A stretch of 64,000 nt of DNA from the NCBI GenBank assembly GCA_005281725.1, contig SSBO01000012.1, positions 1,966,194 to 2,030,193 on the forward strand. The letters are read 5' to 3'. Below, in pieces: positions 3,466 through 52,699 of the stretch. The DNA comes from Wuchereria bancrofti (Eukaryota; Nematoda; Chromadorea; Rhabditida; Onchocercidae). Both the position numbers and the translations under genes were made by a program. Numbering within the stretch: the first letter of the stretch is position 1; the number at the start of each line of letters is the position of its first letter. Below the pieces are notes generated by a model. It saw only the letters and a program-made list of their open reading frames with translations, was not told the DNA's origin and did not search any database.

Positions 3466-6400
3466 ATGGGTGTATGGTTTGTGTTTGGTGCAGTTTTTGC
3501 ACTTGCAAGAGCAGAACAAGTCGATCCACTCACCGATAAGGATCATTTCAAAGTATGTTGTTTTTACGCTTATAGTTTCCTCAGTTTCAAGGTCACGTCT
3601 GAGTTGATAGCATTTCACTACACGTGCCTTGTTAAGCTACAATTCTTTTTGATTTGGTCTTCAAAGACATTATGGTTTTAAGGCTGGTGGACATGATAGC
3701 AGATTTGACCATGAGGCATTTCTCGGTAAAGATACTGCTGAATCAAAGGATGTCGTAAGCAAAGAACGTCTTGCGTAAGTATTTGATGACCGTTACTATT
3801 GGAACATATAGATTTGTTTGAAGATTTTGTGTATTACGCCACAATGGTAAAAGCGTATTGAGAATGGCCGAAAACGGAGATATAGAATGCCAGTTATATA
3901 ACATTTACTTAGATCTATTTTTATAGAAATGTAACATGTCACCCATTCACTCATTTATGGTTTGGTCTGACGAATGATGATTTGTCAAGGAGTATTGACA
4001 CATGCTTGTTATTACAAACGCATCGTTGGTTGAAAAGACCAATGCTGGATAGGCAAGTCCCGTTGCAAAAAACACGGCGGAAGGTCACACTGGGTGGTGA
4101 TAACGGAGCGGATTGATTTTAATACGTTGTCCTTTTTCCATAAGGCAAATCCTACATTCGTTCTCAAAAACAGTAGTAACGCTAAGGACGGTGTTATTGC
4201 TACATTTTGAGAAACAAGAGGACATCATAATCGCTGCAAGATCTTCCATACGCCTTTTTTGCTCATGGTGATAAATGCTTTGGTTGTGATCTGAGCTGAG
4301 AAGAAATCTGTAAACCTGATATGTTGGTCTATAAGCTCTATACGCTTTCTCAGTCCTTTGTGTTCGTTAATATTTTGCGCATGACAGGACCTTTTGTATT
4401 AGATTGACCTACAACTTGTTTTGTTGTCTTCCGAAACAAGATGGTGAACATGAGCAGTTTTGAAGAAGAAAACCTGGATCTGTGGATTGTTTTCATCGAA
4501 TGAATCTTTGGATTTCTTTGATGAGAACCCTAAATGTTCTGCGAAGAACTGCTGGATACTGATTTTTGAAAAGTTGTCAGGGTGCTGCAAAGGAGGAGTT
4601 TGTGGGCTGATCTACAAATCCGGTTTGAAGGTTAGTCTGGAAGTCGTCTCTTAGTGTAGCAATTACGAGATTGCTAACTTTGAGCTTTTTTCATGGAGTG
4701 TCATCTCTTTTAGTTTTGGCCCGAAAGTAGGTGTTGAATTTGCTTACATATTGGGTGCACTAAGATGTAGTTGATGAGGTACCAGTGTTTTATCGAGGAA
4801 TCGAGGATGTATCCAGATTGTTTTTAAGTTGTATTTTTGCTGAAAGATACTGTTTGTGATCGTGAGCTGCTATTTTGCGCAGAACTCTAGCAGGAGGGGC
4901 CATTATCGTTGCACTTTCCAGTACCATGTTTGCTTAATACTCCTCCTCACGGCCTTAAAGAGATGGAGCCTATATGCCGAAAAAGATAAGCATGTTGCTT
5001 ATTGTGTAGTAAGAGGCATAGGAAGACAATACGATCAGAATGAGCTGCCGACAAGTTTACAAGTTTGCATACGATCGAGTTCTTGATTATGAAGCCGAGA
5101 GTCTAATGGTTTATCTAACCAGAAGAGTGGTATCATTTCCTTTGAGACTGCTTTCTTCATGTAAGCGAGTTTCACTGAAGGAAACAGTGTCGGTATGGAT
5201 TCGTGCCAGTAATAGAACGACGCTCGAAACGTCTACTGTCCACAGTATCAAACATGGTTCTGATGTTTCAACATGTGAGAGTCAGTCTGAACACATCTCT
5301 GGAGACAAATGTATGCCGTTGTTTTCTTATTTTGGTTAAATCGCAGCAGAAAAAGCTCGTTAACCATTGTTAGTCAACCGGGTCCGGGTAAAACGTGGAA
5401 ATGAGCTTTAGTTATGTTACATTTTCCATGTTCATGGAGCGATTAGGGCTGTCCTTGAAAAAGTTCGTTTGGTCATTCAGGATGCTGCTGAACAAGACCA
5501 TTTCCGGGGTTAGTCTTGAGCGATCAAAGTCTTGACTCGCCTGCATGCAGGGTTGGGTCTGCAGCCTTCAGTGCACTTTACATCTGCTATTTCGCCCCTC
5601 ATCATTGCTGTAGGGCTTCGTGAAAGCGGGATATCCTTCAAACTCGCATAGCGGTTTTATGAGCTCAGTATGCACGGAATTACCACCATCTTTTGCATCT
5701 GATTTCATCTGTTAGGTCAAGCAAGCTTGGATTGTGGTAGCGACATTTTCAGGTCGGAGGTGTGCTTGGGGTATCATCGTAGATGACTGACGTGTGGCCA
5801 GGTATAAAGTCAGACCTATCCTTCAAGGATGATTTCCTAAGGCCAGTGAACCCATCTTACATATAAACACCTTGTCTGATCCTTCAATTGAAACCTGTTT
5901 CGCTTGGGAAGTCTTATTGGAGGTATATGCTACCTCCAAAATGGCTCGCAACTTCACAAGAGCACGCAAGCTCCTTTCCCACGACAGGACTGTTGCGGAA
6001 ACATAACATTTATATAAATATTAAGCAGCATGTTGAGCAATCTGACTCAAATTACCTTAGCAAGTTCATGAAATTTTGCAAGCTTTAACAAATAGTGATA
6101 CATGAATTTGTAACAAAATTGAAGTTTTCAGGAAATTAGTTGCGAAAATGGATGTAGATGGTGATGGCTTCTTGGAAGAATCTGAATTAAAAGATCACAT
6201 TGACTTTATGCAAAAGCGATATGTTAATAACGATGTTGATCGAACATGGAAAAATTATAATGCGGAGAAAGTTAAGGATGGAAAAATCTCATGGAAGGAT
6301 TACGTGTGAGTTGATCCTGGTCCCTTGCAGAGTGCAATTCTATCACTGTCGTAGTTGGGACTGAATGAAATAAAATGTTGAATTTTTAGAGAAATGGTTT

Positions 6401-16910: not shown

Positions 16911-18860
16911 ATGATGGAGAATGTTCGAGCATATGGTGCCGGCCTAGCTGGAGGACAATTTCAACTGGGCGTTTTCTTGAGAAAACCGGCTGTTATCTTG
17001 CGAATCTTTGCTTTGGTTGGTGAAATGTAGATTTTTTTTTTTTGTTTGAAAAATATCTACCTGATTAAGATATTCCATAAATGAAAATATTGGCGAAATT
17101 TTTTGGTTGGCTGATGGTATCTGTTAAGATGAAGACGAAACTCTTTGTAGCAATTAACTGAAGAATGCTAACCTCATTATCATCATCACCATATATTTTT
17201 TAGTTGCTGAATTATGATCATATATTTCGCAACTTGAAATATTAGACTAGGAAAATGCGCATATCAGTGATAGTTTCTTTTTTTTTAAATATTTTTACAT
17301 TTAAGGTTGTTGGTCTTGCACAGTGGATCGCCGTTTCACGTGGTGGTTGGTATACACCAGAAAATGGTGACAAACAAATTTGCCTTTATGCCAATAGTTC
17401 ATCGACCTGTTCTTTCGGTTCAGCGATGGGTTTTTTTGCTGTTCTGAGTTCATTGGGTCTATTGTTTCTAGATGCTAAATTCGAAAAAATTAGTTCGATT
17501 CCAACTAGAAAACGTGCTGTAACCACCGATATGATCCTTTCTGGTTTGTTGACTATGCTGTTGTTTTTTCGGTCGCATAATATTGAATCGTTTTTTATGA
17601 CTACTGAAACTTTTATTAGCCCAGAAAACATTGGATACGTTAGATACGATCTTGAAAGTTTATTTCTCGAATATGAACTTTTCTTCATTGATCGATGATC
17701 AATTGTATGAAGGAGATCAGACTACTTTTTCATTACTGCGAAATTTTTTTTAGCCATCTATATTTATTATTTGTGTTATTTGTTTGATAATTCTCTTCTC
17801 TGTTATCAATTTTTGAGTGGTTGATCAAAAGCTTTCTCTGTTGTAACATTAAAGAGGAATGCATAAGGATCCTAAGTATCAAACAACAAGTGAAGCACGG
17901 ATATTTAAAACATTTTAATGTTTAAATTTTAAAGCGAGTTAGAATTCCAAAATATTTTTCTCTTAAATTCCAAATTAATTTGGAAAATACTGCCCAAAAA
18001 GAATAAGTCATAATTTTCAGCACTGCTGGCATTCTTATTTCTGATAACTTTTTTTTCGTTATGGTCAAAGTATGGTGAGGTGGATATAAGCAAACCGTAC
18101 GATGGCGGTTTGGCCAAAAGCGCCATTTTATTCGCGTTTCTATCCTTCATTACTTGGGTGGTTTTTTGGTCCTGTTTCACTAAATAGTAGCGAATTATTT
18201 TTATTCCACTACTAGAAGTTTGGACGAAATTTTTTAAGTTTAACATAAGATCAGGTTTTGGATGATTAAAGAAAATACCAATTTTAATTTCAATTGTATT
18301 TTTTGCAAACTTTCTGCTGTTCCAGTAAACTTCTTTACACTTCTTTAATATCATAAGCAATTGACTTTCATAATGGGATAATTACTATTAAAAATTCATC
18401 GATTTTAGGGCGCGGCTGCGTTTTTGGCATGGAGACGATACGAAGAAGGTGCAATAACAAATTTCGTACCATCATATGAACAAGATTTCACAACTGGGAT
18501 ACATGCTGGACCAGATTACAGCTATGGTGGTGAAAGCGATATCGGCGTTGCTGGTCAGTTTATTTTGACAAATGAAGCTACTCGAATCATAATGTTAAAT
18601 GTTAAAATCAAATTAAAAAAGTTGCGAGGGATTATGAAAATTTTAGATTGTATTATGAAAAAACATAAGTGACATTTAATATTGTTTTCTCAAACATTTC
18701 GAATTATTGTCACTCATAAGATTTTATTTATTCTGAAAAGTTTAAAATTTGAAATATTTCAGGACAAAGTGACAGAGGTACATATCAAAATGCTCCATTT
18801 ACAGCAATCAATACAGCAGAATCTCCAGTGGATATTACAAAAAGTTATCAGGGATATTAG
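16911..18860 (+). CDS. sng-1: Synaptogyrin
   Basis: Four-pass MARVEL-domain protein of synaptic vesicles. Exons: 16911-17015, 17306-17543, 18021-18157, 18409-18553, 18763-18860, giving 240 residues with agreeing phases. The start MMENVRAYGAGLAGGQF matches the family's N-terminus. TM1 includes VILRIFALVVGLAQWI. The first loop has paired cysteines in DKQICLYANSSSTCSFGSAM (family pattern: FCIYN...ACSYG). TM2 is FFAVLSSLGLLFLDAKF, TM3 is ILSALLAFLFLITFFSLWS, and TM4 is SAILFAFLSFITWGAAAFLA followed by WRRYEEG. The tail ends in ITKSYQGY. The exon 1 to 2 junction uses a weak donor (GTTGGT) and an AAG acceptor, so it may be off by a codon or two. An open frame on the opposite strand over exon 3 is a shadow. 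Confidence 0.93.
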
Positions 18861-21166: not shown

Positions 21167-23207
21167 ATGGTTAATGATATTGAAATTCGAGAACGTTTAT
21201 TATATACTGAAAAGCTTAAATATTTGGCATTTTTTGGTGTTGCAACAAGTGCTTTTACTCCAGTTGTTTGTGTAATGTCAATTCCACTACTTTATAATTA
21301 CTTACAATTTGTTCAGACACAATTACAAACCAAAACTCAATACTGCAAAGTAAGTATAAATCATTATTCATTGATCGATAGTAAGAGTATAATTAGAAGA
21401 TGATCATATGATCATTTTCTCAACTGAGCTACCTATGAATCAATAACAGTATTACATTAATAGTTGTAGTACACATTGAAATTTCGTATCAGAGAAATCA
21501 TTAGATTAACCTTTCCTTTTTTGTTATCATTTGTCTTAGTATGAGTAAATTATTTGCAATTATGATAATGAATTATTGTTAAGATTAATTGCTATGAAAT
21601 GAAGAATTGTCTTAGTTATATGAGTTTGATTATATTTCAAGTAAATATAATAATATAATGACAGAAGAAAGTATTTTCTTTTTTCGTTTATTTCATTATG
21701 CTTAATGTTAATAACGAATTTAATTTTAATGCAAAATTAGTATTCTATACAAATTTGAATTTGTATAAGAAAACACTTTTCTTTTCCATTTCTGTCTTTT
21801 TTTAAAATTATTTATGTCCAACATATTTTTTAATATGAAATTTGGAATTACAACCGTGTGTTAAAAAAAAATAATATTACTTTCATCTCATTTGCTAATG
21901 TTCATATTACAGTGATAAAAAAAAAAATGAAAATTTTGGCTATAGGATCGATCATTAGAGCTTTTTAAATGATTATCTGAAAGAAATTTGAAACAAAAGC
22001 GAGAAGGAAATTTTGATCAAGAAATGCTCAATAGAAACGATAGTAATGCAGCGTGTAAGTTAATTAAATGTTTAATGAAAGATAAAACTTAATAACAATA
22101 ATTCAAATAGTGATAAAGTTACCTTACTACCATTTTGGAATTATGGTTGCTGTGCATATTTTCTATTAGGTTATAAGTGTGAATACGGGTCATCGGATCC
22201 AGCTGGACCAAAAGGTCGCAATGGGAAAAATGATGTGGATGGATTACCAGGAAGCAATGGAATACCGGGAATTGATGATGATGTGATTGTTACCAAAGGA
22301 ACTGATTTCTGTTTTGAATGTCCACCAGGTATGATAACTAAAATTGCGTTATTTTCGAATTTATTATTTATATGATATATTTTTAAGAGCTGCTGGACCT
22401 CCAGGACTTGCAGATCCTAAAGGTCTACCTGGTATACCTGGCGTCCCAGGCTTGAATGCTGATGGTAGTGAACGAGGTCCACCAGTTCCTGAGCCTCCTG
22501 GACAGCCAGCAAGTTCTGAAATATGATTTTTTTTTTTGTTGGAAGAATCATTTTTTCGAAGAAAAAAATATTATTTTCTTTTAAACAACTTTTTTTAGGG
22601 TTTGCCAGGACAAGCCGGACCTAAAGGACAACCAAGCATTGATGGACATATCATTAAACAACCCGGACACCGGGATTTCCAGGTTTACCAGGCAAGAGAA
22701 TCCTTATCAATCAAATTTAAAATAGCGAGTACAACCCATGTTTCCAATTTATTTTTTTCTTTTTTTTTGAAATAATCATTAAAATTCTTTTGAATTAAAA
22801 ATCCAAAAGTGTTAAAGTCTTTTTGAAATTTTGAAAGTTACGCAAACAATGAAATATTTTGACCGTAGTTAAGCTATGAAGGATGAAACACTACAATATG
22901 ATATGGTACTTTCAGGACCACAAGGTCCAGTTGGTAGTCCAGGAGTTCAAAGTCTACCTGGAATACCGGGACCATTAAGTTAGATTAATTTTAATATCTG
23001 TTGAAGCATTGAGCACTTTAGATTATGATTATATTCATAGTGTAATAATTAAAATTTATGAACATAGACTATCCACCAGGAGATCCTGGTATTCCAGAAA
23101 TCGATGGTCGACCTGGCTTTTCTGGAAAAAAAGGTATCACTGGAAAACGTGGACCAAGTGGATCATGCAACCATTGTCCAGATGCAAGAACAGCGCCAGG
23201 ATATTAA
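21167..23207 (+). pseudogene. Cuticle collagen, disrupted
   Basis: The layout is that of a nematode cuticle collagen. An N-terminal exon (21167-21352) has a hydrophobic anchor (YLAFFGVATSAFTPVVCVMS). A linker exon follows (21946-22054), then Cys-flanked Gly-X-Y blocks (22170-22328, about 22390-22526, about 22600-22700, 22918-22981, about 23070-23207) ending in CNHCPDARTAPGY. Breaks: TGA at 21970 in the linker frame; TGA at 22524 with no usable donor to the next Gly-X-Y block; a frame change near 22668, where GTPGFPGLPGK continues in another frame; TAG after GIPGPLS near 22981; and Gly lost in GVQSLPG. Both termini remain well preserved, so the decay is recent or some breaks are sequencing errors. 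Functional collagens of this type form the worm's exoskeleton after secretion and trimming. Confidence 0.75.
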
Positions 23208-24472: not shown

Positions 24473-27400
24473 TCAAATTGGCCATGTGGGAAAAAAGTGA
24501 AGAACAAAAGGAATAAGTGTTAATTGTTGAAGTGATAATGACGCAGATCGTGTAAGCTTAGATAATTTGATTCTTGAAGTTGTTTTTACAGCTACTGTAA
24601 CCGCATCACCAATTCCAGCTTCATTTTCTGCTTTAAATCTAAATATATATGTTGTTCCTTGACGTAATCCACCAATTTCATATAATCCATTCTTATCTAT
24701 AAATGATGAAAATTTTCGTTAGCAAATATACGTATAGAAAATGTTATGATGTATCATTGCTTAATTATCATTTGTTAATTCAAAACATATCATTGATTAA
24801 TTTAAAATTTATTATTTTAGTAAAATAATATCTTTGTGCTTTCATAATATAACAAAAAAAGAAAAAATGAACAATTAAACTTACTTAAAGGTACATTCAT
24901 TTTAACAGCATGCGCAAACCAAACACGATTATTTTCTCTGGTTTGATCACGACTCTTAAATTATGTATTAGTTTACGTCATAATAAATTTCTGCCAATCT
25001 TTTTTTTTTTTTTTTAAATAATAAAAATTTATGAAATACTTTAAATATTCATACATCATAGGATGAACATATAAGAAAAAGAAATTAAAAATTTATAAAA
25101 TTTACTTTTATTTTTTTTTTTTTTTTGTTTTTTGATAGAAGAAAAAAAAAAATTAGAACTTGTTCTAGGATGGATTTCTTAATATATTCTATAATATAAC
25201 GTCGTATTGGCAATTGTTCACCAAATCCTTCCTCAATTTTCCACAACACATAAGTCATTCCAACATCTTGCAATGAAACATGAACTTCACCAGGTGGAGC
25301 TGTAATGTAAGATTCGTTTTTTTTTTTCGCTTTTCTTTTTTAAAATTATTATGAAATTTTTTAGAGTAATGAAATATTGCATACTTGCTTCTTTAACAGC
25401 AATTGTTTGTTGTGACTTTGACTTTCCATTACTCACTTCGCATTGATATTCACCCAAATCATATTCTGTTGGTGATAAAATCTAAAGTATGATAAAATCT
25501 AAAGCAAATTAACATTTAAAAAAAAAAAAAAAAAAACGACAATTTTTGTATTAGAAATAATTAATAGCATATTGTTATGCTATGAAATAGAGAATGATAT
25601 TAAGTTATTTAAGATAACATTTAAACGAGCTTTACATCATACACAAAAACACAATAATCAATATATAATTGTTAAAGTTAAATTAATTCAAAAGAATCAA
25701 GGAATGAAGTTACCTTAAGACAACTTCTTTGATTTAAAACATCAATTAAAATAATATGATTGGTATCGTTCCGGAGCTCATCACTACCTTTCAAATATCG
25801 AAAATGCCTAGCAGGTGGATTCGAACGTGTTACGTTACAACAAATTTGAGCTGAATAATCCAGAACAATAAAACGTTCCACAAACGGTTTATTGAATTCC
25901 GGAGACGCTAAAATTATTCGTTTCGATCAATATGCTATTCCGAATATGACTTCAAAGTCAAAATGTTATACCATCCATGGAAATTGAAAGCACCTTTTTT
26001 TTTGTCTTCTACTTCTACATTTATAAAAAAAGACGAATCATATATCTCTTTCTTTTTTTTCTTTTTCAATTTTAATAGCTAAATTGGAGGAATTATTAAA
26101 TACAAACACCAAACGTCTAATCGAATTTCGTGTTGCTCAACAACTGTTGCATCATATTTTTCGAATTCTTGAACTGATAAGCATTTGATGATAACATCTT
26201 GGTACTCATTCGTAAGCCTCTTAACAGTTACTTCTGATCCAGCCGTAACAAACAACGTCTCTACAATATATGAATATCTAAAAGATTAGAATTAATTTCA
26301 ACATTCAATTCATTTTTATTCTATTTTAAATCAAATTAATTAATGCTAAAATTTTCAACTTGTTAAACAATCTATGAAATAAAATAATTTGAAGTGCATG
26401 ATACAATAGTAAAAATGAACAGATCAGTCAGATCTCATTTCATTTTAATCATATAAAATCTCTGATCGTTCTCTAATTCTTTCACTAAATTATTAATCGT
26501 TGATAATATCACTTTTAGATTTTATGTAATTAATTTATGTAATTAATCCAAAGAAATAGATTCAAATGAATCATATCCTACTTAATGAGCAAATTCAATC
26601 TCTTAATGGCATTTAGTTTGATTTAGTACCATGATTAATTTTATGCTATCAAAAATATGATAAAATGAAGCTATGATAAACCATTAAGTGGAAATCCGTT
26701 ATGATTCGTAATGTAGGTTTCCGGTTGTGGATTGCCAGTGGATCCACAATCGATGGTCAACGATTCGCCAAACATCCCTCCAACAATATCATTGTTTTCA
26801 TTCCAATGAATTTCATCTAAAATTGTTTTATCGTTGGAAAATTTTTAAAGATTTTTTTTTTCTTTTAATATTGTCTAATACAATTAATTCGATTATCTTT
26901 TTCTTCACATATTTTTCATCAAAATTAGAAATTTAATACCTACGACGATGATTTCCACTTTCCAATTAGCCGAAATCCTTCTGGAATTCCTGGCAACACA
27001 TTTATAGATTCCGGTATCACGTTTAGCAATTTGGGTAAATACCAACGATAACTTTTTATACATTGAGTCATGCTCTCGTAACTCAACAGTAAATAGACTA
27101 AAAACTACGAGTTGTATAATTTAAGTTCGACAAAGTGAATGATTATAGTGAATGATTACAATGTGTAAATTATAACTTTGTAGTAAGTAATATTATGACA
27201 CTAAGCATAATAAAACATCTCACCTCAAACCTATCAGGTAGAAAGATACGGATCAAGATAAACAATAAGATTTTACCTCATCAATAATCCATTAAATTAT
27301 GTCAAATGATAAATCGCATTGATAATATTGAAGTACTGAAGTAGTTTAATCCTGTCAGTTTATCAGTGAGTAAAGTAGAACTAACTTAAGCTTTAATATG

Positions 27401-29251
27401 TTTTAAAGTTAAAAAAATATTACTTACCTATTTGAAGATTCGCCATCTATTTTACGACCAAATTCATTTCGCCATGCAAGATGTAAACAATTTAAAGAAG
27501 TCTGCTGACAGATGCAAGAAATCCGAAATTTACGATCAACTCGAACCACATATCGACTATTGTTAAGAGGTGGTGGCTCAAGACGTAATAAATTCGAGCA
27601 CTTAGCCCCCGTTATCACACCTTAATTAATTATGAAAAAATTAGAATTAAAAGTCTGAACCGCTGTTCACAATAAATAAATAAACAAATAAATATTTCTC
27701 ACATTTTCCTCATATTTGAATTCAATGATTTGTTTAAAGTTTTAAGCAAATACACAGGTTAATATGGTTTATTGTGGCAGAATGTATATTCAGGCTACAT
27801 AATTCTGTAATGACTGATTCTAACTCATTTTTTTCGTACTTTTGAATTTTAACTTTTTTTTTTACTTTTTGTATTCGTAAAAGTTTTACATATATTGTAT
27901 TAGAGGTACTTTTAGCTATGAAATAAATAATATCTTAATATTATTTATTTTATATTTATACTTCTTTTTCTAATGAAATTGAACTTTGCCATTATCATAC
28001 CTTGTTTTGATTTCCACTTCTCTACCTTTCTTTAGGAAAAAAAAATGCAGTATGAAGTTATGCTTTACACAACTTAAATCCAACTATGTGGCTTTTAAAT
28101 GAGGCAATTTAACTTTTACTAGACTTTAGGCTTTGTAGAAAACAAAGATAACAGAAAGGTTTTGCCCTTATTTGCGCCATCTCTAGCAGCTCATTTTTTT
28201 CTTCGTCTTTTTTTTTCCTTTCTGAAAAAAAAAAAATGCTTTTTGAAATATTACTTATTGAGATATTTAACTGAAAATAGTAATTGTGAGAATGGAAGGG
28301 AAAAAAAAAAGAGTAAATATTTAAAAATAAAGATAAATACATTCATTTAGTTCAATAATTCTATAAGAAACGGAAAATATAGAGTTGTTATAAAAAGAAT
28401 GAATAGAAATATATGTCGGATATTTAGTAAGATCTAAATTAAATTTTCGTCCTTTTCATTTTTTTTTTTTTTTTTGCTCGCAAATATTCGATATTATATT
28501 TAGCGAATGGCCTGATTAAACTGTAATTAAATTTCGTTGCTCGTTTAGCTTATTTTAATTATTAAGTATGATTACTTGATATATGTGTCTATTATATATG
28601 TATGATATTAACTTATTGCTAAAAAGAAAAAAAATGTCTGGAAGACGTAAAATAATTTATTATCTAAAAAAAGAAAAAGAAGATATCATTGAATCATTCT
28701 GAAATAAATGTAAACAAGAATAGATGAAATAAAAAAAAAAATGTAATAAAACGTTAGAATATTTTGTGATTAAAAAAAAATTGTTTTTTAAAATAAATTT
28801 AATAAAGTAGTAAAATAAAATGAAATAAAATAAAACGGAAGAATTTAAAAGATAATTGTTAACGAGTAATAGTAGTTGTCAAAAAAAGTTAAAATTTCAA
28901 TGAACAATCAACATCATTTATTCATACTTTTCCATATTACTGTTAGCATAAAAATTTTTGTTCATATTTGGTATTTGATTTTTTTTTCTTTTTTGAAAAT
29001 TATTCAAAAAAAAAGTTTGCAAAAATATGCAACAAAAAAAAAAAAAAGGAATGTTAGCATACAATTTTTTTTCCTCGGAAAAAAATAATGAAAGAGAGAG
29101 AGGGAGAGAAAGGGAGAAAGAGAAACAAAAAAAAAAAAAAAAATAACATACCGGCAAGAAGAGTAAAAGTAATCAGTGTGGTAATGATAATAATAATATC
29201 AATGAAGACGTTAAAGCTAACTGTGATTGACAAAGGCGAACTGAATGACAT
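24473..29251 (-). CDS. Secreted/GPI-type Ig and FN3 adhesion protein
   Basis: Cell-surface immunoglobulin-superfamily protein of 487 residues. Ten exons: 29251-29152, 27620-27428, 27097-26940, 26816-26682, 26260-26108, 25907-25714, 25481-25385, 25299-25160, 24954-24885, 24696-24473; all phases agree. Exon 1 is a signal peptide (VFIDIIIIITTLITFTLLAG). Ig1 spans exons 2-3 (ISCICQQ ... DTGIYKCVARN). Ig2 spans exons 4-5 (GESLTIDCGSTGNPQPE ... VIIKCLSV). Ig3 spans exons 6-7 (AQICCNVTRSNPPA ... DLGEYQCEVSNGKS). One FN3 domain spans exons 8-10 (TPPGEVHVSL ... YIFRFKAENEAGIGDAV). The protein ends with a small-residue stretch and the hydrophobic tail LSLQQLTLIPFVLHFFPTWP, with no cytoplasmic residues, which suggests GPI anchoring. 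C. elegans RIG-3 is a GPI-anchored Ig/FN3 neuronal protein and is the closest analogue I can suggest; NCAM-like relatives are the alternative. Exon 2 uses an AAG acceptor, and the exon 4 and 5 donors are weak. Confidence 0.87.
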
Positions 29252-30508: not shown

Positions 30509-30946
30509 ATGACAAATCCTAAACTATTGATACTGTTTCTGGATGCTGCATTAGTTATGGAATGTATTTCGTTTCTGCATAATGCTTGGATATTTACAAC
30601 TTCAACAACCTCAAAACCAGGCTGTTCAATTTACAACGATGAACAATTGCATATTATCATGGATCGAGTTTGTGAAATTTGTCATGAGATGTATTCGCAT
30701 CAATACCCTAATACAAGGGCCGATTGCAGGTTTGAAATGCAAATTTTTCCTTTTTTAAATTAATGAAGAGTTATGGAAGGAAATCTTTTGGATTGTTATT
30801 TAAAAAATGATTGTAGAAATAATTCGATTAAAATAGTATATAACAATGTTAAAATTTGAAATGGTATTTTCAGATCAGACTGTTTCCGGAGCAAGCATTT
30901 TCAATCATGTTTGGACCATTTTCGACCTATGATTCCGTATGGTTGA
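30509..30946 (+). CDS. CHH/ITP-family-like secreted neuropeptide
   Basis: A 97-residue secreted peptide from two exons, 30509-30729 and 30874-30946, joined in phase 2 inside an Arg codon (TGCAG|GT ... TTTCAG|A). A signal peptide (LLILFLDAALVMECISFL) precedes a six-cysteine domain: GCSIYND, then DRVCEICHEMYS, then ADCRSDCFRSKHFQSC. This reproduces the crustacean hyperglycemic hormone / ion transport peptide spacing, including C-x2-C and C-x3-C, with Tyr/Asp after Cys1 and a C-terminal LDHF like LDDL in the family. Nematode members of this superfamily are known, for example from C. elegans. The protein ends in PYG-stop; a terminal Gly can be converted to an amide, but there is no dibasic site before the domain. 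Its receptor in nematodes is not known to me. It converges with a GPCR gene 600 bp downstream. Confidence 0.85.
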
Positions 30947-31546: not shown

Positions 31547-34500
31547 TCATTCTGATGAACATTTCACAAGTGCATCACATTTAACATTTTCAATCAAAGT
31601 TTCTGTAATACTATTAGGACTAGCAAATTTTTCTTCCTTACAACTTCTTCCAATTTTTGAAATTGAACGTTGATTCCTTTGCTGAACGAAAGATTCCTGT
31701 AATGAAATATTAAAAGCTGAAAATAACATAAATTAAATTTACAAATTTCTTCTATTGCATCAAAGTGAATTTTCTCTGCAGTCCATTTAAATATGATTTT
31801 ATTTCATTAATATAACATTTAGTTACAACTTTTTGTATGGTCTAAATGTTGTTTACATCGAGACTCTTCAAAATGCCTCACTGTGACAATTGATAAATTT
31901 AAAAGCCATAGCCTTTTAAAACGAAATATTTGTTTTAATGAAACATTTCTTTTATGCAATAATTAACAGTATCTCGATTCATCGGCTTTTTTTCTAAATT
32001 TAATATCGGACTTATTTTGACTTAGAAATAGCAATAAAGATATTGGCTTTCCTTTCCTTAAATTTAATTTGAAGAAAATGATTTAAGCATGGGAATTAAA
32101 TTTTAATCAAACTTTTGCAATAAAGCAGTTGCAATATTTTAAATATATATCTCAGCCTCAAGTCTATTTTTAATTCTTATAACTTTAACTACTGAAGTAA
32201 AATTGTACTAAAAATGATACCTCAATTTATTATCATTTCGAAAATCTCAGAAGTTGGGATCAATTATAAAGTTATCAAATAGCTTATTGAATATTAAGAG
32301 AACGGTTTAAAATTGTTTGTTTTAATTTTACTCACTATTTGAAGTTAAAAAATACTTTTTTTTGTTTTTTGTTAAAAAAATATTTTTCTTTTTTGTATTT
32401 CTATGTTTCCATTAGAATGAATGCTAATTTTAATGAAAGATATTCTTTATCATTTTTGAAAATATTACATATTTATCAATGATTATTATAATGATCAAAA
32501 TATTAACCTGTGCAGTTTGATTTGAAAGTTTATTCCATAATTGATTTGTTAACTCATTGAGTCCAAGTGCTTTCATTCGTTTATAATTACGATTAACAAT
32601 ACACGGACACAAAAGAGCGGCACAAATCCGTCGAAATTTACGACCAAATATCGAATAAATAAAAATATTTGAAGCACTGAAATTAAGAAAAATGTTGGAG
32701 GAATTTTTTTCTTTTTTTTTGAAAAAAAATCAATTAAATAAAACAGTGCTTTTTAGGAAATGCTTAATTTAACCATTTTCAATTATTTTATCTAAAAAAT
32801 AAAATGATACTCCAGTTAATGACACAAAATGGTTTGACAAACATTGCATGCATCTTTAGATATCAATCAAAATATGAGACTAAATTAAATATATTCCCAA
32901 AAGATAAGTTATACTAATGAAAAAAAGATAAAGTGACAAACCTATTGACGCATACTAATAAATTTGCAATAGGTAAACGTAAGCGAAAGAATTGAGAATA
33001 TTCGGCAAAGAATGCTTCAATAATGTGATTAATACCAGCCATTAAATTACAAGCAATAAATGTTAAAATCATTACAAAAGCCATAAGTGTACAGTGTCGT
33101 TCTTTTTCATCCAAATTTGCGGTACGACTCATCAAAGAGCGACGGATACGGTATGCTTGTTGTACTGATCGGATAACGATAACGTTTAAAACAATCATTG
33201 TTGTCCAAGGAATGATGATTAATAGTAACAAATAACCGTAAGTATTATATAAAACAATATAAAGGCCGTTGGTACGTAACGGCGTTGGAGCTAAACGACC
33301 ACATTCATCTAATGTTAATTCGAACAGTGATGGTAATTTGTAAACAAATGATACTGTTGCTATCACCGATAAAACCAACTTGGCACGTGATGTCGAACAC
33401 CACACGCGGGTTTGCAATGGATATTTTACAGCTAAGTACCTGAAAGTTACGTACTTTTCTTATATTTCGCTTTAGTTTCAAATTGAATAATTTAATTGTA
33501 TTCATCGAGAAATTAATAACAGGCAATTTTCCCAACTTTTCATGATATTTCCAAAACTATCAATTTTGAAATTCTTAGTCAATATAGATGAAAAAAAAAG
33601 CTTACTTTCAACTAGCAATAGCTTTTGTGTAATAAGACGAAAAAAGTAAGCCAATAATTTTAAAAATTTTCAATTATTCAGTTATACGAAATTGTCATTC
33701 ATTAATGCAAATAAAAAAGTGAAAAATAATAATCATTGAGTATTGCTAACAAAGTTTTACCGATCAACAGTGATAGCTACACATGTCCATACTGAAGAGG
33801 TCTGTGCTGCAAGGGATATTGGATAACTGACAAGTGTCGTCTTCCAAAAAAATTCACATACTGCACCTTGTTGCTAAAATTTCAAAGTTTTGCCGATTAA
33901 ATTTATTTAAATTTAAAAAATTATATGTTTGATCAAATAAAACTAATACTTCATTTTTCATTTTAGTAACGATAACAATTTCTGTAATGTATTAATTCGA
34001 GTGATGGGAAGACGTAATCACATGTGCTGTTAGCGTAATTACATATCTATTGTTAAGCATAGTCGAGAATGGTGTACTTCTACGAGTATCATCTCGAGAT
34101 ATGCATGCTAGCATATGAAATATTAATATTGATGATCATTAAAATAACAGCAACAAATAACAATGATACGATGAAATATTTTGTTGTTGTCTAGGAGATA
34201 TAGTTAGTACTAAAAGAAGCAGTAGTAAATGCAAAAGTTTCAGCTTCAAATTTCATGCAAAACAAAATTTTTAACGAAAAAGCGCAGTCGTTCATAATAA
34301 TTTTTACATATGCTTATTAAAATTTTCATATTTTCATAATAGCTGAAAAAGCTCCGTGATTACTCTTTGTAAGAAATTTGAAATTTCAAGTGGAAAATAC
34401 AAAAAAAAAAAAAAAATTGATCACTCAAATCATTCTTTATCAATACTTCACTAATCTATGATCATGAAACATACTTCCAATATAATAGTATTTTTGATCA

Positions 34501-37500
34501 ATGTTTAAGAAATGTACGATGAAGTTTCCATTTTAGTAAATGCAAAATTTATTCGTGCTTTGATTGTTTGATTGCCAACCTACATTAGCTTCATTTTTAT
34601 CATTTCATTTGGAAAAAATATTTCATTCGAGAACACTAATAAGGCAATCTGTTACAATCGTTAATCAGTACTTTTTTAAATTTGCCTCCCAGATATGAAT
34701 TAACTGAAATATCGTAATTTTCCAATTTGACATTTATAACCTGCTACTATCAAAAAATACATTTAATATTACTTTTTTTATTTTTGAGATGATATAAGTA
34801 AAAAAAGAAAAAAACAGATTTACATTCTTAAAAAAAAAAAAAAAAAAAAAAAACAGAGGCTTACATTCTGCTGAAAAAGCTTGCAATACTAATTGTTAAA
34901 TTTATTGATCAGATTAATTTTTTCATACAATGATGAGTTAAGATGATTTTAACAAGCAAATAAGCTTTATCACTCGCAGATTATTACTTAAATTTAAGCT
35001 CTCATCTATGATTGATTTATGGTGGAGGAAATACGAGAATATAAGCGTATGGTATAATTATTAAAGTTATTATGGAAAATTGGCCACCCTTCTGTCTAAG
35101 CTACTGTCTAGGAAATATGATTAATGTTCAAGCTAATCTTTTTTTTTTTTTGTTGTTGCTAAATTTTTCATAATGTTATTATTGATCAGAAGAGAAAGTA
35201 ATAAAAGAAAAGAGCAATAAAGTAACAATAAATTGTTAAATTGTTTAATAGGCAGATGCATTCGTGTGGCAGATTACTGTGCGCATATTATCAAAAATGA
35301 TAAAATTACCTTTTGAAATTTTGTTCTACTATTTTTGGAAATTTTTTTTTCTTTTACCTCTTGCAACACATTCTTTTTAATCTTATAAAAGGGAACTATT
35401 GAAATATTGAAATATAAAAGCATAAGCTTTAAGGGAATGAAGAGAAATGTAACATTTCTGTTTCAATGATTTAAGCAAGTAATTGGCTTGTCTAGGTTAA
35501 GAAATTATTATGAAAGACTGAGCAATTATTTCGTTTGAGTTGATGAAGGAATGTTAATAATTGTAACTTCATTAAGTTATATCGATTATTGGATGATTGA
35601 TTCTTGTTGAGAAATAATTTTAAACGTCTACGATTTCTCTCATATATTTATCTTAGTGAACACTTTTTCTTTTATAATTTTTCCATTTACTAACAAAATC
35701 TTTTTCATATTTGTGCATTATTTTTCGCTTATATATGCAAATTATTTATTACAGTTAATGGTTTAATCATCCACATTTAAGATTTTCTATTGGATAGACG
35801 AATTGGTTTAAATGGAATCGAAAGCTATAATCTCATTAATTCTGAAAGAACACCGAAAGTAAAGCATATAATTGATCCAAATGAACACATGAATATCTCT
35901 CCTTTTTTTTTTTTTTTTTTAATTCATTTTTCCTTTAGCATTTTAAAAAGAAAAAAAAAAAAATGATCAATAAAGTGAATAACTTCTGCTGTTTCTCATC
36001 ATTTCAAGATTCTCATTATATCTAATAAATATTTCAATTATCACAATAGCAACACTAATGTTATTGGATTTAGCTCACATATTATATATAGCTAAACCAC
36101 AAAATTATATATAAAGCTATAAAAATTTATACATATACAAACAAATATATGTATATATAGCTTGAATGAATTTCAATGATTAATTAAAATATTGATCATG
36201 GTTGCATGATGATTAAAAATTCAGAAATTGCTTAAAAGCTAGTTAGTTGAGGTATTTCGAAACGTTCCAGTAAATTCATTAAGCATTATTGAAAAGGAAC
36301 AGCGGTAAATAAATAGCGATGTCAGAACATGCCTGAGATGCTCAATGTACTTTTAAGCAAAATGATTCTCAGCAGAAAAGAATGCAAGAAATTTTCTAAA
36401 AATTGATCTTACATTGTGGTCTTTCTTTTTTCTTTTTAGTTTTAAATAAAAATTCAAAATAGTTTACCATTTTCAAATATTTTCAATAATAAATTCATTG
36501 CATTCTACCAATACTTTCTTTCAGTACCATTAGCATTTCTATTTAGGTAATTCAAATTTGAATCAGTGGTGATCATATTAATCAAAGTTATGCAAAAATT
36601 ATAAAATCCATTCCGATAGTTCATCTTAAGTGTTGTTTTCATGATAATTTCGCACCGTGTTTATAGGCTCATGAACATCAAAATGATTCCTAATGATGAT
36701 GAAGACGGATATTTTGAATTTTAAATTAGCCAAATAATTATGTAAATTTTGATTTCAACATTAATTTTACAAGGAAATTTTTTCATTTATTATATCTATT
36801 GAGTCACTAATAATCAAAATTACAAGTTTTGCTGACAAATCTACTCAAATCTATTTGTTTTTCTGCATCAAGTCATATAATAATAATTCACTACATGACA
36901 AAAGCCGATGCTGCAACTAACGACATTTGATTTGCGTCACCGTATGTTACTTGCAGCGTATGCTACTTGCAAATCGTGTTTTCAATATTGTAAACGTAAG
37001 AAGTATAAAAATTGCGGAACGGTTCACTATAAAAAATATAACAAATAGAAGTTGTATCAAACAGTAGGCGCATATTTGATCTATTGTTAAGTCATGCAAA
37101 GTGATGTGAAAATTGTGTTATTGCAAAAAAGTAAATCAATCTGCATGCCTTTAAGGATTATTTATGCAATTTGTTGATAGTACAAATTTTCTCAGCACTT
37201 TTTTTAGTATATTCTATATGCTTTCACAGATTTTTTTTTTCTAATTAAGTACTTAATGCTTAGTAAGAAATTAATTAAAAAAAAAAAAAAAAAAAAAGGA
37301 GACTTACGTTATTTTGCAAACAGATCTGCATAGGAGGATAAATAAGAAGTGATACAAGTAAAAGAATTAAATCGAAAAATGATAAACCAGCCAGATAAAT
37401 GTTTAATGAAGAGCGCATTTGTGGACGAGTGAATATGATGACACATACGGAGGCAGCAAATACACCAGCCGTACAAACAAGTGGTAATACGGTGGTATAA

Positions 37501-37604
37501 ATGATATGTTGAGCGAAATCAACAAGATTATCAGTTCTTTGGGAATCAAGGGATTGTGACATATGGCATCCTGAATGATGATTATAATCCATCGATAAGG
37601 ACAA
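31547..37604 (-). CDS. Class A GPCR, FMRFamide/neuropeptide-receptor type
   Basis: Seven-transmembrane receptor of 408 residues. Exons: 37604-37308 (N-terminus, TM1, TM2), 33873-33761 (TM3), 33439-32942 (TM4 to TM7), 32676-32508, 31696-31547 (C-terminal tail); phases agree. TM1/loop: IIFTRPQMRSSLNIYLAGLS (family pattern: MRSSxNxYL). TM3 starts at a conserved Cys (AVCEFFW) and ends in VDRYLAVKYP, a DRY-type motif. The second extracellular loop has its partner Cys (LDECGRLAP). TM5 includes YGYLLLLIIIPWTTMIVLN. TM6 includes LMAFVMILTFIACNL. TM7 reads LPIANLLVCVNRSASNIFIY, so the usual NPxxY is replaced by an N-x-S-A-S-N-IFIY version, as in FMRFamide-receptor-like proteins of nematodes. The first intron is 3.4 kb. 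The ligand is not predictable from sequence. Confidence 0.88.
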
Positions 37605-37790
37605 TAATGATAATTATGATGATAATAGTGATAACAGTGTTTGGTTTAGTTAAAAAATTATTGTTTTGATCCATTTGATTAAGAACTAATAGACGGCATA
37701 TGATTTAGCACTGACCATTTGGCCTTGAGGAATGATTGTTAGAGTCCTTTCCTGACTAAGTAAGTCCTATTATTTCCACTCTTCTATTTC

Positions 37791-50502: not shown

Positions 50503-52699
50503 ATGGAGTCGAAAGATGTTGGTGAATTAACTAAACCAAATGGTTATGATACGGAAGGCAAGGAATTTATCAGTGCTCTTCCTAAAAGCATTAAACGACG
50601 AATTCAAGCACTGAAGAAATTGCAAGTCGAGGGTTTGTGTATATTTTATCGTATTTTATCATCCACACATTTACTTGGCTTTTATGTAGAATGGTATGGG
50701 TGATGGAATTCAGTAAAAAATTTCTGAAGTAAGCAAAAAAGTGAAGATCTTGAGAAGTTAACAGTGATGAGGGATAATAAACCATGAGTGCTTGTCATGA
50801 AGTGATTATTTCGAATATTATTGAGGCACTGTTTAGGTATTAATGTTGAAGCTCATTTCTATGAACGTGTGCATCAGTTAGAGGTAGAATTTGCTCCCAT
50901 GTTCAATGCTTTGCATGATAAGGTAAATTGTTCTTTTTTCTGTTTCGTCTTCTCTATTACAGTCATTGGTCTTGAAACAAATCGATAACAAAAGTTATCA
51001 AGTTGTTAGCAATCTCAGGAGGACTGATAGTTCTGCCACAGCACAAGCGCTGGAATGTGCACAGTGATGCTTAGTGGTTTGCTGTTCACCGCTCCCCCTT
51101 TCATACAGATAGTGAGATAATTTGCATACTGTATACTGCTAGTGTTAATTGTTTATTCATGTTTCTGCAACAATGGGTCGAGCTTGTTACATGTTGTTTT
51201 GGATTAGGATAAGTACCAATAGATTTGTTGAACTCTAAAGGTTTTAAAGAAGGATACAACCTCCTTTGACGACCGATGGATCAAAACACTTGGGGTTTAT
51301 TTTATTTATCTGTTGTGTTACTTGCAGAGAAAAGCGATTATAACGGGTACATATGAACCCACTGATGACGAGACTAATTATCCGATTCTTCATGGTTATA
51401 CAAAGGAAGAAATCGAGGTGACTATCCAGTTTTGCAAATCATTTTAAAAATATCTTTATTTGTTGTCCGTGGGGTATTTTTGGATTTATTTCCAGCAAAT
51501 GGAAAAAGCATCAGCCCCGGAACCTAACCAGCCAACAAAAGGTGTTCCAAATTTTTGGTTACACTTGCTTAAAAATGTAGATCACGTTTGTGAGATGATC
51601 CATGAACACGATGAACCAGTACTTCAACATCTCATTGACATAACATGTGACGTCCAGGCTAACCCGGATGTAAGTTTTCATCATAAATATTAAAGTGTGT
51701 GGTTATCGATAAGGTTCCGGAAAAGATGTTGATCTGACATTTTTTTCTGGGTAGCGAAGTCGGTATTGCAACTTGTAATTGGAGTTTTGTGAAAATGTTT
51801 GATGTTTAGTATATGCTGGGTTTTAGACATATGTGGTTTTTATTGGATAAACTTTTTAGTCATATACTCTGACATTCCATTTCGAACCCAATGAATATTT
51901 CACTCAGACAGAGTTGAAGAAATTTTATACCCTACAAGTTGCTCCGGATGAAGACGATATTTTTGATTACGATGGTCCAGTAATAATTAGTGCCAAAGGG
52001 TAAGTTATATTTGATTTTTCCTAATCGTTAGTATTTATCCATGGTGCTCTCTGGCCGAGGAAATCGTTAAACTGCTAATTGAGAGACATATATGTACATC
52101 ATCTTACCAGTAGTTGCAGTATTTTAGATTACCATTGTTAATTACAGCACCGAAATAGATTGGAAAGAGGGAAAAAACGTTACAAAGAAAATTATTAAGA
52201 AGAAGCAAAAGAAAGGCAGCGCTGCTGGTCGCTTCATTACAAAAACTGTGAAAGCTGACTCTTTCTTCAACTTCTTCGACCCTCCACTCATGGAAAATAA
52301 GAATGAAACCAATGGAAATGATGATGTTAGTATAATCGTGCTTCGTTTTTTTATATATTTATGTATTTTCAGATATTTGTGGTTTATTCGAGAGTCAAAC
52401 ATTTCATGGGTTGCAACATAAGCATTCACTATAACAGAATATAAAAGGCTGTTGAGCGAAGTGGGTGGTAAACAAATCTAGGTTGCGAACTGGTAACAGT
52501 TTTTTGCTCCTTATGGTTCATTAATCCTTGATTTCAGGATATTGAAACTCAGGAACTGTTGCAAGCTGATTTCGAGATTGGTCAGCTATTCCGTGACCAA
52601 ATTGTGCCTAGAGCAGTGCTGTTTTACACTAAAGAAGCAATGGATGAAAATGAAATTTTCGATTATGATGCGGATGAGGATGAAGATGAGGTTCTTTAA
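50503..52699 (+). CDS. nap-1: Nucleosome assembly protein (NAP1)
   Basis: Histone H2A-H2B chaperone acting in chromatin assembly and histone import. Seven exons: 50503-50632, 50837-50922, 51328-51417, 51496-51669, 51860-51999, 52148-52325, 52538-52699, giving 319 residues with agreeing phases. Landmarks of the NAP domain: ALPKSIKRRIQALKKLQ, the dimerisation helix FYERVHQLEVEFAPMFNALH, KRKAIITG-type RKAIITGTYEP, GVPNFWLHLLKN, the earmuff strands YTLTFHFEPNEYFT and DGPVIISAKGTEIDWKEGKN, then SFFNFFDPP and QADFEIGQLFRDQIVPRAVL. The C-terminus is acidic (DYDADEDEDE) but shorter than usual, ending at VL-stop. The GAG|GTTCTT there could also act as a donor to an unseen extra acidic exon. It is the first of three genes in the same orientation. 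Confidence 0.94.

Follow-up and report, generated by a model that had tools for sequence, protein, structure and literature searches.

A two-exon gene for a predicted secreted peptide of the CHH/ITP family in the filarial worm Wuchereria bancrofti, and its paralogue

A stretch of 64,000 nucleotides of the Wuchereria bancrofti genome (contig SSBO01000012.1, positions 1,966,194 to 2,030,193; hereafter the window) contains at 30509-30946 a small locus, which a preliminary description made from the letters alone had read as a two-exon gene for a neurohormone of the CHH/ITP family; among the members of this family are hormones by which crabs and insects regulate sugar, moulting and water balance. 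The locus raises the question of whether the gene is real, whether its product belongs to this family and what such a peptide could do in a parasitic worm. Sequence analysis confirmed a real two-exon gene for a six-cysteine, putatively secreted peptide of the CHH/ITP family. That this product is a peptide hormone of the CHH/ITP/MIH family, acting most likely via a Gyc76C-type cyclase, is considered probable; the steps that follow secretion, the function and the receptor are what we infer.

The gene model is delimited by an ATG at 30509, a GT donor at 30730-30731, a TTTTCAG acceptor ending at 30873 and a stop codon at 30944-30946. The phase-2 join of the two exons, in which the final AG of exon 1 begins the codon of Arg74, immediately after Cys73, produces an open precursor of 97 amino acids; given the consensus splice sites, this join and the open product, the two-exon claim holds, and both the second exon of 73 bases and the terminal PYG had been read correctly. 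The domain cysteines are residues 39, 55, 58, 73, 77 and 86, with a spacing of 15-2-14-3-8: the 12 residues originally counted between C3 and C4 were a miscount, the spliced product having 14. The N-terminus is hydrophobic, as in the close relatives, and the model of the protein has predicted helices at residues 45-62, 69-75 and 81-89.

Three lines of evidence place the product in the family: the Pfam score, the six cysteines in order and spacing, and a phase-2 intron after C4. Residues 39-89 of the spliced product match PF01147 (Crust_neurohorm) with E=4.5e-9 and 36.5 bits, against a gathering cut-off of 25, whereas the read-through frame of exon 1 (30509-30763), devoid of exon 2, reaches only 18.2 bits. 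A search of solved structures with the single sequence retrieved the crustacean CHH 5b5i (E=6.8e-6), MIH 1j0t and 5xs1 not being significant (0.28 and 0.45); with a profile of 43 relatives, all three were matched (5b5i 1.1e-9, 5xs1 9.4e-5, 1j0t 1.4e-4). This alignment was drawn from 46 complete proteins, with the exclusion of P0021, P0027 and P0032, and each of its 43 members matches PF01147 at E<=0.01. As to the intron, the part of PMC2841656 consulted gives a phase-2 intron within the codon that follows C4 as the ancestral family arrangement, with Caenorhabditis ITP2 and the Trichinella gene as the exceptions among the genes then known, and the window intron agrees with this rule in both phase and place. 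The CHH/ITP interpretation of the preliminary description is thus supported by a profile match above the curated cut-off, by the 5b5i match and by the intron at the family position. Structure comparisons gave no CHH-family structure among 8 Foldseek matches of model 1 against the PDB (best E=4.7), and 42 BFVD matches of model 2 with E<=10, none of them with E<=0.001; in both, the helical N-terminal segment may interfere.

W. bancrofti WUBG_06441 (90% cluster, P0001) has exactly the sequence of the window protein, so the complete gene is already in the annotation; local identities to database proteins are 100, 91 and 87%, the last match covering 85% of the query. Protein identity thus places the source among the filarial nematodes, near Brugia/Wuchereria. 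Onchocerca flexuosa P0002 and Thelazia P0003 (91 and 81% over the alignment), which are also 97 residues long and end with glycine, are orthologues by tree and length; the database names of these three entries are hypothetical, unnamed or domain-only, with no function stated. A total of 65 database proteins were fetched, 46 of which, P0001 included, are complete by a six-cysteine pattern that permits 12-15 residues between C3 and C4. The loop is 14 residues long in each of the 46, and all except P0032, with 17 between C1 and C2, have the full 15-2-14-3-8 spacing. The arthropod CHH/ITP/MIH chains aligned in the 5b5i, 5xs1 and 1j0t searches share with the window protein the six cysteines, the CxxC motif and the CR-x-x-C core, but they have 12 residues between C3 and C4, two fewer; the longer loop therefore looks like a nematode mark, as far as these sequences indicate. 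Arthropod CHH and ITP differ also by a dibasic pro-region, and arthropod CHH by a longer tail. A terminal glycine is found in 3/46 complete proteins, all of the window type (filarial/thelaziid); a dibasic pair precedes C1 in 24/46, strongylids included, some of these pairs being probably within the signal region, and in none of the five complete window-type members.

The remaining 19 of the 65 proteins are incomplete: 15 have C1-C4 with C5-C6 missing or misjoined, at least three of which (P0061, P0062 and P0065) end at or just past C4 and may be contig ends, and four are otherwise incomplete or interrupted. Among the window-type relatives, the second exon is lost in P0004, P0005, P0008 and P0060. 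That gene finders may drop this exon was a fair warning for some of the relatives, 15/65 being without correct C5-C6; the entries of W. bancrofti, O. flexuosa and Thelazia are complete and escape it. Misleading database names were observed on the CHH-family proteins P0008, P0012, P0015, P0016, P0017 and P0060; the names concerned are Saposin B-type, FLZ-type, CHHC U11-48K-type, Zf-Tim10_DDP, Nudix and IMS_C, and in some of these proteins the last exon is lost or misjoined.

With exon 1 as the query, the genome (86.5 Mb in 108 contigs) yielded, besides the window, a single further place; it is 51% identical and shares the 24.1-Mb contig of the window, about 360 kb upstream. By our own reading of the locus, this second CHH gene, which is new here, would have three coding exons, with an intron after C4 at the same phase and place as that of the window gene; its product matches PF01147 at 1.7e-10 and is 95% identical to Brugia malayi BM17906 (P0011). 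Both have the domain of the window protein, P0011 also its spacing; they differ from it in the longer precursor, a Lys-Arg site 12 residues ahead of C1 and the absence of a terminal glycine. A TAA stop inside the genomic match was an artefact: the match overran the donor by 18 bases, and the exon ended at the donor contains no stop. Since the second gene looks intact, the window copy might be viewed as a decayed or unexpressed pseudogene beside a working paralogue; this is extremely improbable, as the open frame, the consensus splice sites, the 91% identity to Onchocerca and the near-invariant core argue against it.

No third CHH gene was revealed: window exon 1, a paralogue exon and an exon of the third type found in ascarids (E<=10) all gave the same two places. 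A PF01147 family search of the genome gave nothing; it is uninformative, because even the known gene was missed. For an alternative 3′ exon of the ITP/ITP-L type, 15 acceptor-plus-two-cysteine candidates were obtained at 30730-63500 on the plus strand, the true exon included, and the minus-strand control also gave 15; at the paralogue locus (L003) the scan identified its own exon only, so there is no evidence for an L-form. In the literature, a second filarial CHH gene was not found in titles and abstract openings among the matches listed.

The phylogenetic tree (49 rows, 57 columns) has 10 of 45 inner branches starred, an extremely long arthropod outgroup branch and several long-branched rows; within these limits, it exhibited three clades. 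The first comprises the window gene with Thelazia, Onchocerca, Toxocara, Ascaris and a four-cysteine Anisakis fragment (96/93, starred), a Gongylonema member being assigned to it by sequence; its ascarid members Toxocara P0006 and Ascaris P0007 are likewise without a dibasic site, but have an 18-residue tail, an internal PGR and no terminal glycine. The paralogue clusters with Setaria, Loa, Brugia, Dracunculus, Anisakis, Gnathostoma, Heterorhabditis and Auanema (91/98, not starred), and the third clade includes Anisakis, Parascaris and Toxocara, together with the long-branched Acrobeloides and Aphelenchoides (97/87, starred). That Anisakis has members in all three clades, and this worm in two, suggests duplications that predate the separation of spirurids and ascarids. 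All eight database sequences that cluster with the paralogue have a dibasic pair ahead of C1, which is Arg-Lys in Heterorhabditis and Auanema and Lys-Arg in the others (filariae, Dracunculus, Anisakis and Gnathostoma); Plectus has such a pair as well. These candidate cleavage sites argue against the scenario given in the consulted part of PMC2841656, in which, within nematodes, dibasic sites arose in the Caenorhabditis ancestor. That source also describes ZC168.2 (ITP 1) and C05E11.6 (ITP 2) of C. elegans as nematode CHH-family peptides, the gene of ITP 2 being, unlike the window gene, without the family intron; neither was among the matches under its gene name.

From this ancestry a further reading may be drawn, which is less likely than not: nematodes would hold at least three old CHH lineages, and the window type, by name present only in spirurid and ascarid parasites, would be a separate hormone without a dibasic pro-region, with an amidation-ready glycine in filariae and Thelazia; it would have a receptor to itself and a task particular to its lineage, for example the control of moulting, osmotic state or host transition. 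It is improbable that a CHH-fold peptide has been turned in these parasites to a host-facing secreted role, instead of being an internal hormone. CHH peptides were probably recruited several times to arthropod venoms (PMC7560641, in part), and the spider venom peptide TaITX-1 is the top one of six VIA rows, from which 5b5i and 5xs1 are absent. The window-type group consists by name of animal parasites (Wuchereria, Onchocerca, Thelazia, Toxocara, Ascaris, Anisakis and Gongylonema); to our knowledge, the spirurid/ascarid lineage is wholly parasitic, so this link to a host is not informative. Against a host-facing role stand the strongly conserved core of the family and its wide distribution in nematodes, with matches in Plectus, Auanema and Caenorhabditis auriculariae, which are free-living.

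The preferred reading remains that of an internal peptide hormone, for which the following steps are proposed. The window gene, one of the two CHH genes found in the genome and a member of the group without a dibasic pro-region site, would yield a peptide of about 76 residues after cleavage of the signal peptide near Ser21. Three disulfides would form according to the family rule, C1-C5, C2-C4 and C3-C6, so that two of these bridges would each depend on a cysteine from exon 2, and the C-terminal glycine may give rise to an amide. Secretion into the body cavity would then proceed from neurosecretory or other cells, and the most likely target there would be a Gyc76C-type membrane guanylate cyclase, whose activation would raise cyclic GMP, with a tuned ion/water, metabolic or moult/reproductive state as the outcome. 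Gyc76C is the best-supported fly receptor for ITP according to the consulted part of PMC12611267, which reports ITP-type genes in nematodes too; in this genome, 35 exon-level cyclase-domain matches occur at about a dozen places, and adenylate cyclases may be among them.

The secreted family member could instead have another signalling role, for example as a moult or germ-line regulator, possibly via a G-protein-coupled receptor (GPCR) as for Bombyx ITP, although we regard this as unlikely. MIH and CHH functions diverge inside the family, RNA interference of C05E11.6 affects reproductive ageing, which is the only phenotype found in a worm, and the receptors of Bombyx ITP/ITPL are GPCRs; Drosophila ITPa, however, did not activate TkR99D or PK2-R1, the tested relatives of the Bombyx receptors (both from the same part of PMC12611267). 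As in MIH-type precursors, the window precursor has no dibasic pro-region site, and residues 1-38 have no dibasic pair such as that of Type I (CHH/ITP) precursors; Type II (MIH/GIH) peptides, though, are marked by a glycine five positions after C1, where the window protein has Asp (residue 44).

Two points of the preliminary description are weaker: amidation at the final glycine is no more than a possibility, and the family in nematodes has been in print since 2010, one Brugia peptide of 102 residues included (PMC2841656, in part). A function for the CHH family in filarial worms was not found in the literature searched; the main text of the nematode NLP survey PMC8764417 contains no whole-word "hyperglycemic", "CHH" or "ITP", and PMC3916258 uses "neurohormone" for acetylcholine only.

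Other features of the window are collected in the table with those of the two CHH genes. Exons of a rhodopsin-type GPCR lie just downstream of the hormone gene and opposite to it; there is no evidence for a role as its receptor.

Table. Coordinates of the two CHH genes and of other features; positions refer to the window unless a locus is named.
Feature	Position	Strand	Remarks
CHH gene, exon 1, coding	30509..30729	+	221 bases; putative signal peptide (about residues 1-21) and C1-C4
Exon-1 share of six-cysteine domain	30623..30729	+	C39 to C73
CHH gene, intron	30730..30873	+	144 bases, GT...TTTTCAG, phase 2
CHH gene, exon 2, coding	30874..30946	+	73 bases including stop; C5, C6 and 11-residue tail ending PYG; identical in P0001, close in P0002 and P0003
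Paralogue	G000:C12:1635060 to 1636378 (in L002)		CHH-family gene with Lys-Arg site
Paralogue model, three coding exons	L002 719-880, 1426-1617, 1959-2037		own reading of the locus
Rhodopsin-type GPCR exon	32917-33459	-	7tm_1 E=3e-11, also Srw
Rhodopsin-type GPCR exon	37278-37613	-	weak matches, below cut-off
Nucleosome assembly protein exon	51448-51690	+	NAP E=6.3e-16
EF-hand exon, calumenin-like by eye	6106-6306, more exons by eye to about 7700	+	EF-hand_1 E=4.5e-6
Ig/fn3-type adhesion-like protein exons, by eye	24476-27621	-	fn3 E=0.0047, below cut-off, in 24476-24718; no family matched in 25681-25926
Weak matches, below cut-off	17246-17695 and 22079-22372	+	MARVEL E=8e-5; collagen repeats E=0.0011

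The gene itself is already in the databases and the family already published; the additions of value are a corrected cysteine spacing, the second gene and, as the sequences suggest, a likely older ancestry. The 102-residue Brugia peptide of 2010 is longer than the whole 97-residue window precursor, and it is thus more likely the paralogue than the window gene, as far as the consulted part of PMC2841656 allows; if so, the window gene would be the one missed at that time. With a clean gene model, a paralogue and a separate ancestry, the questions of receptor, tissue and stage would become testable.
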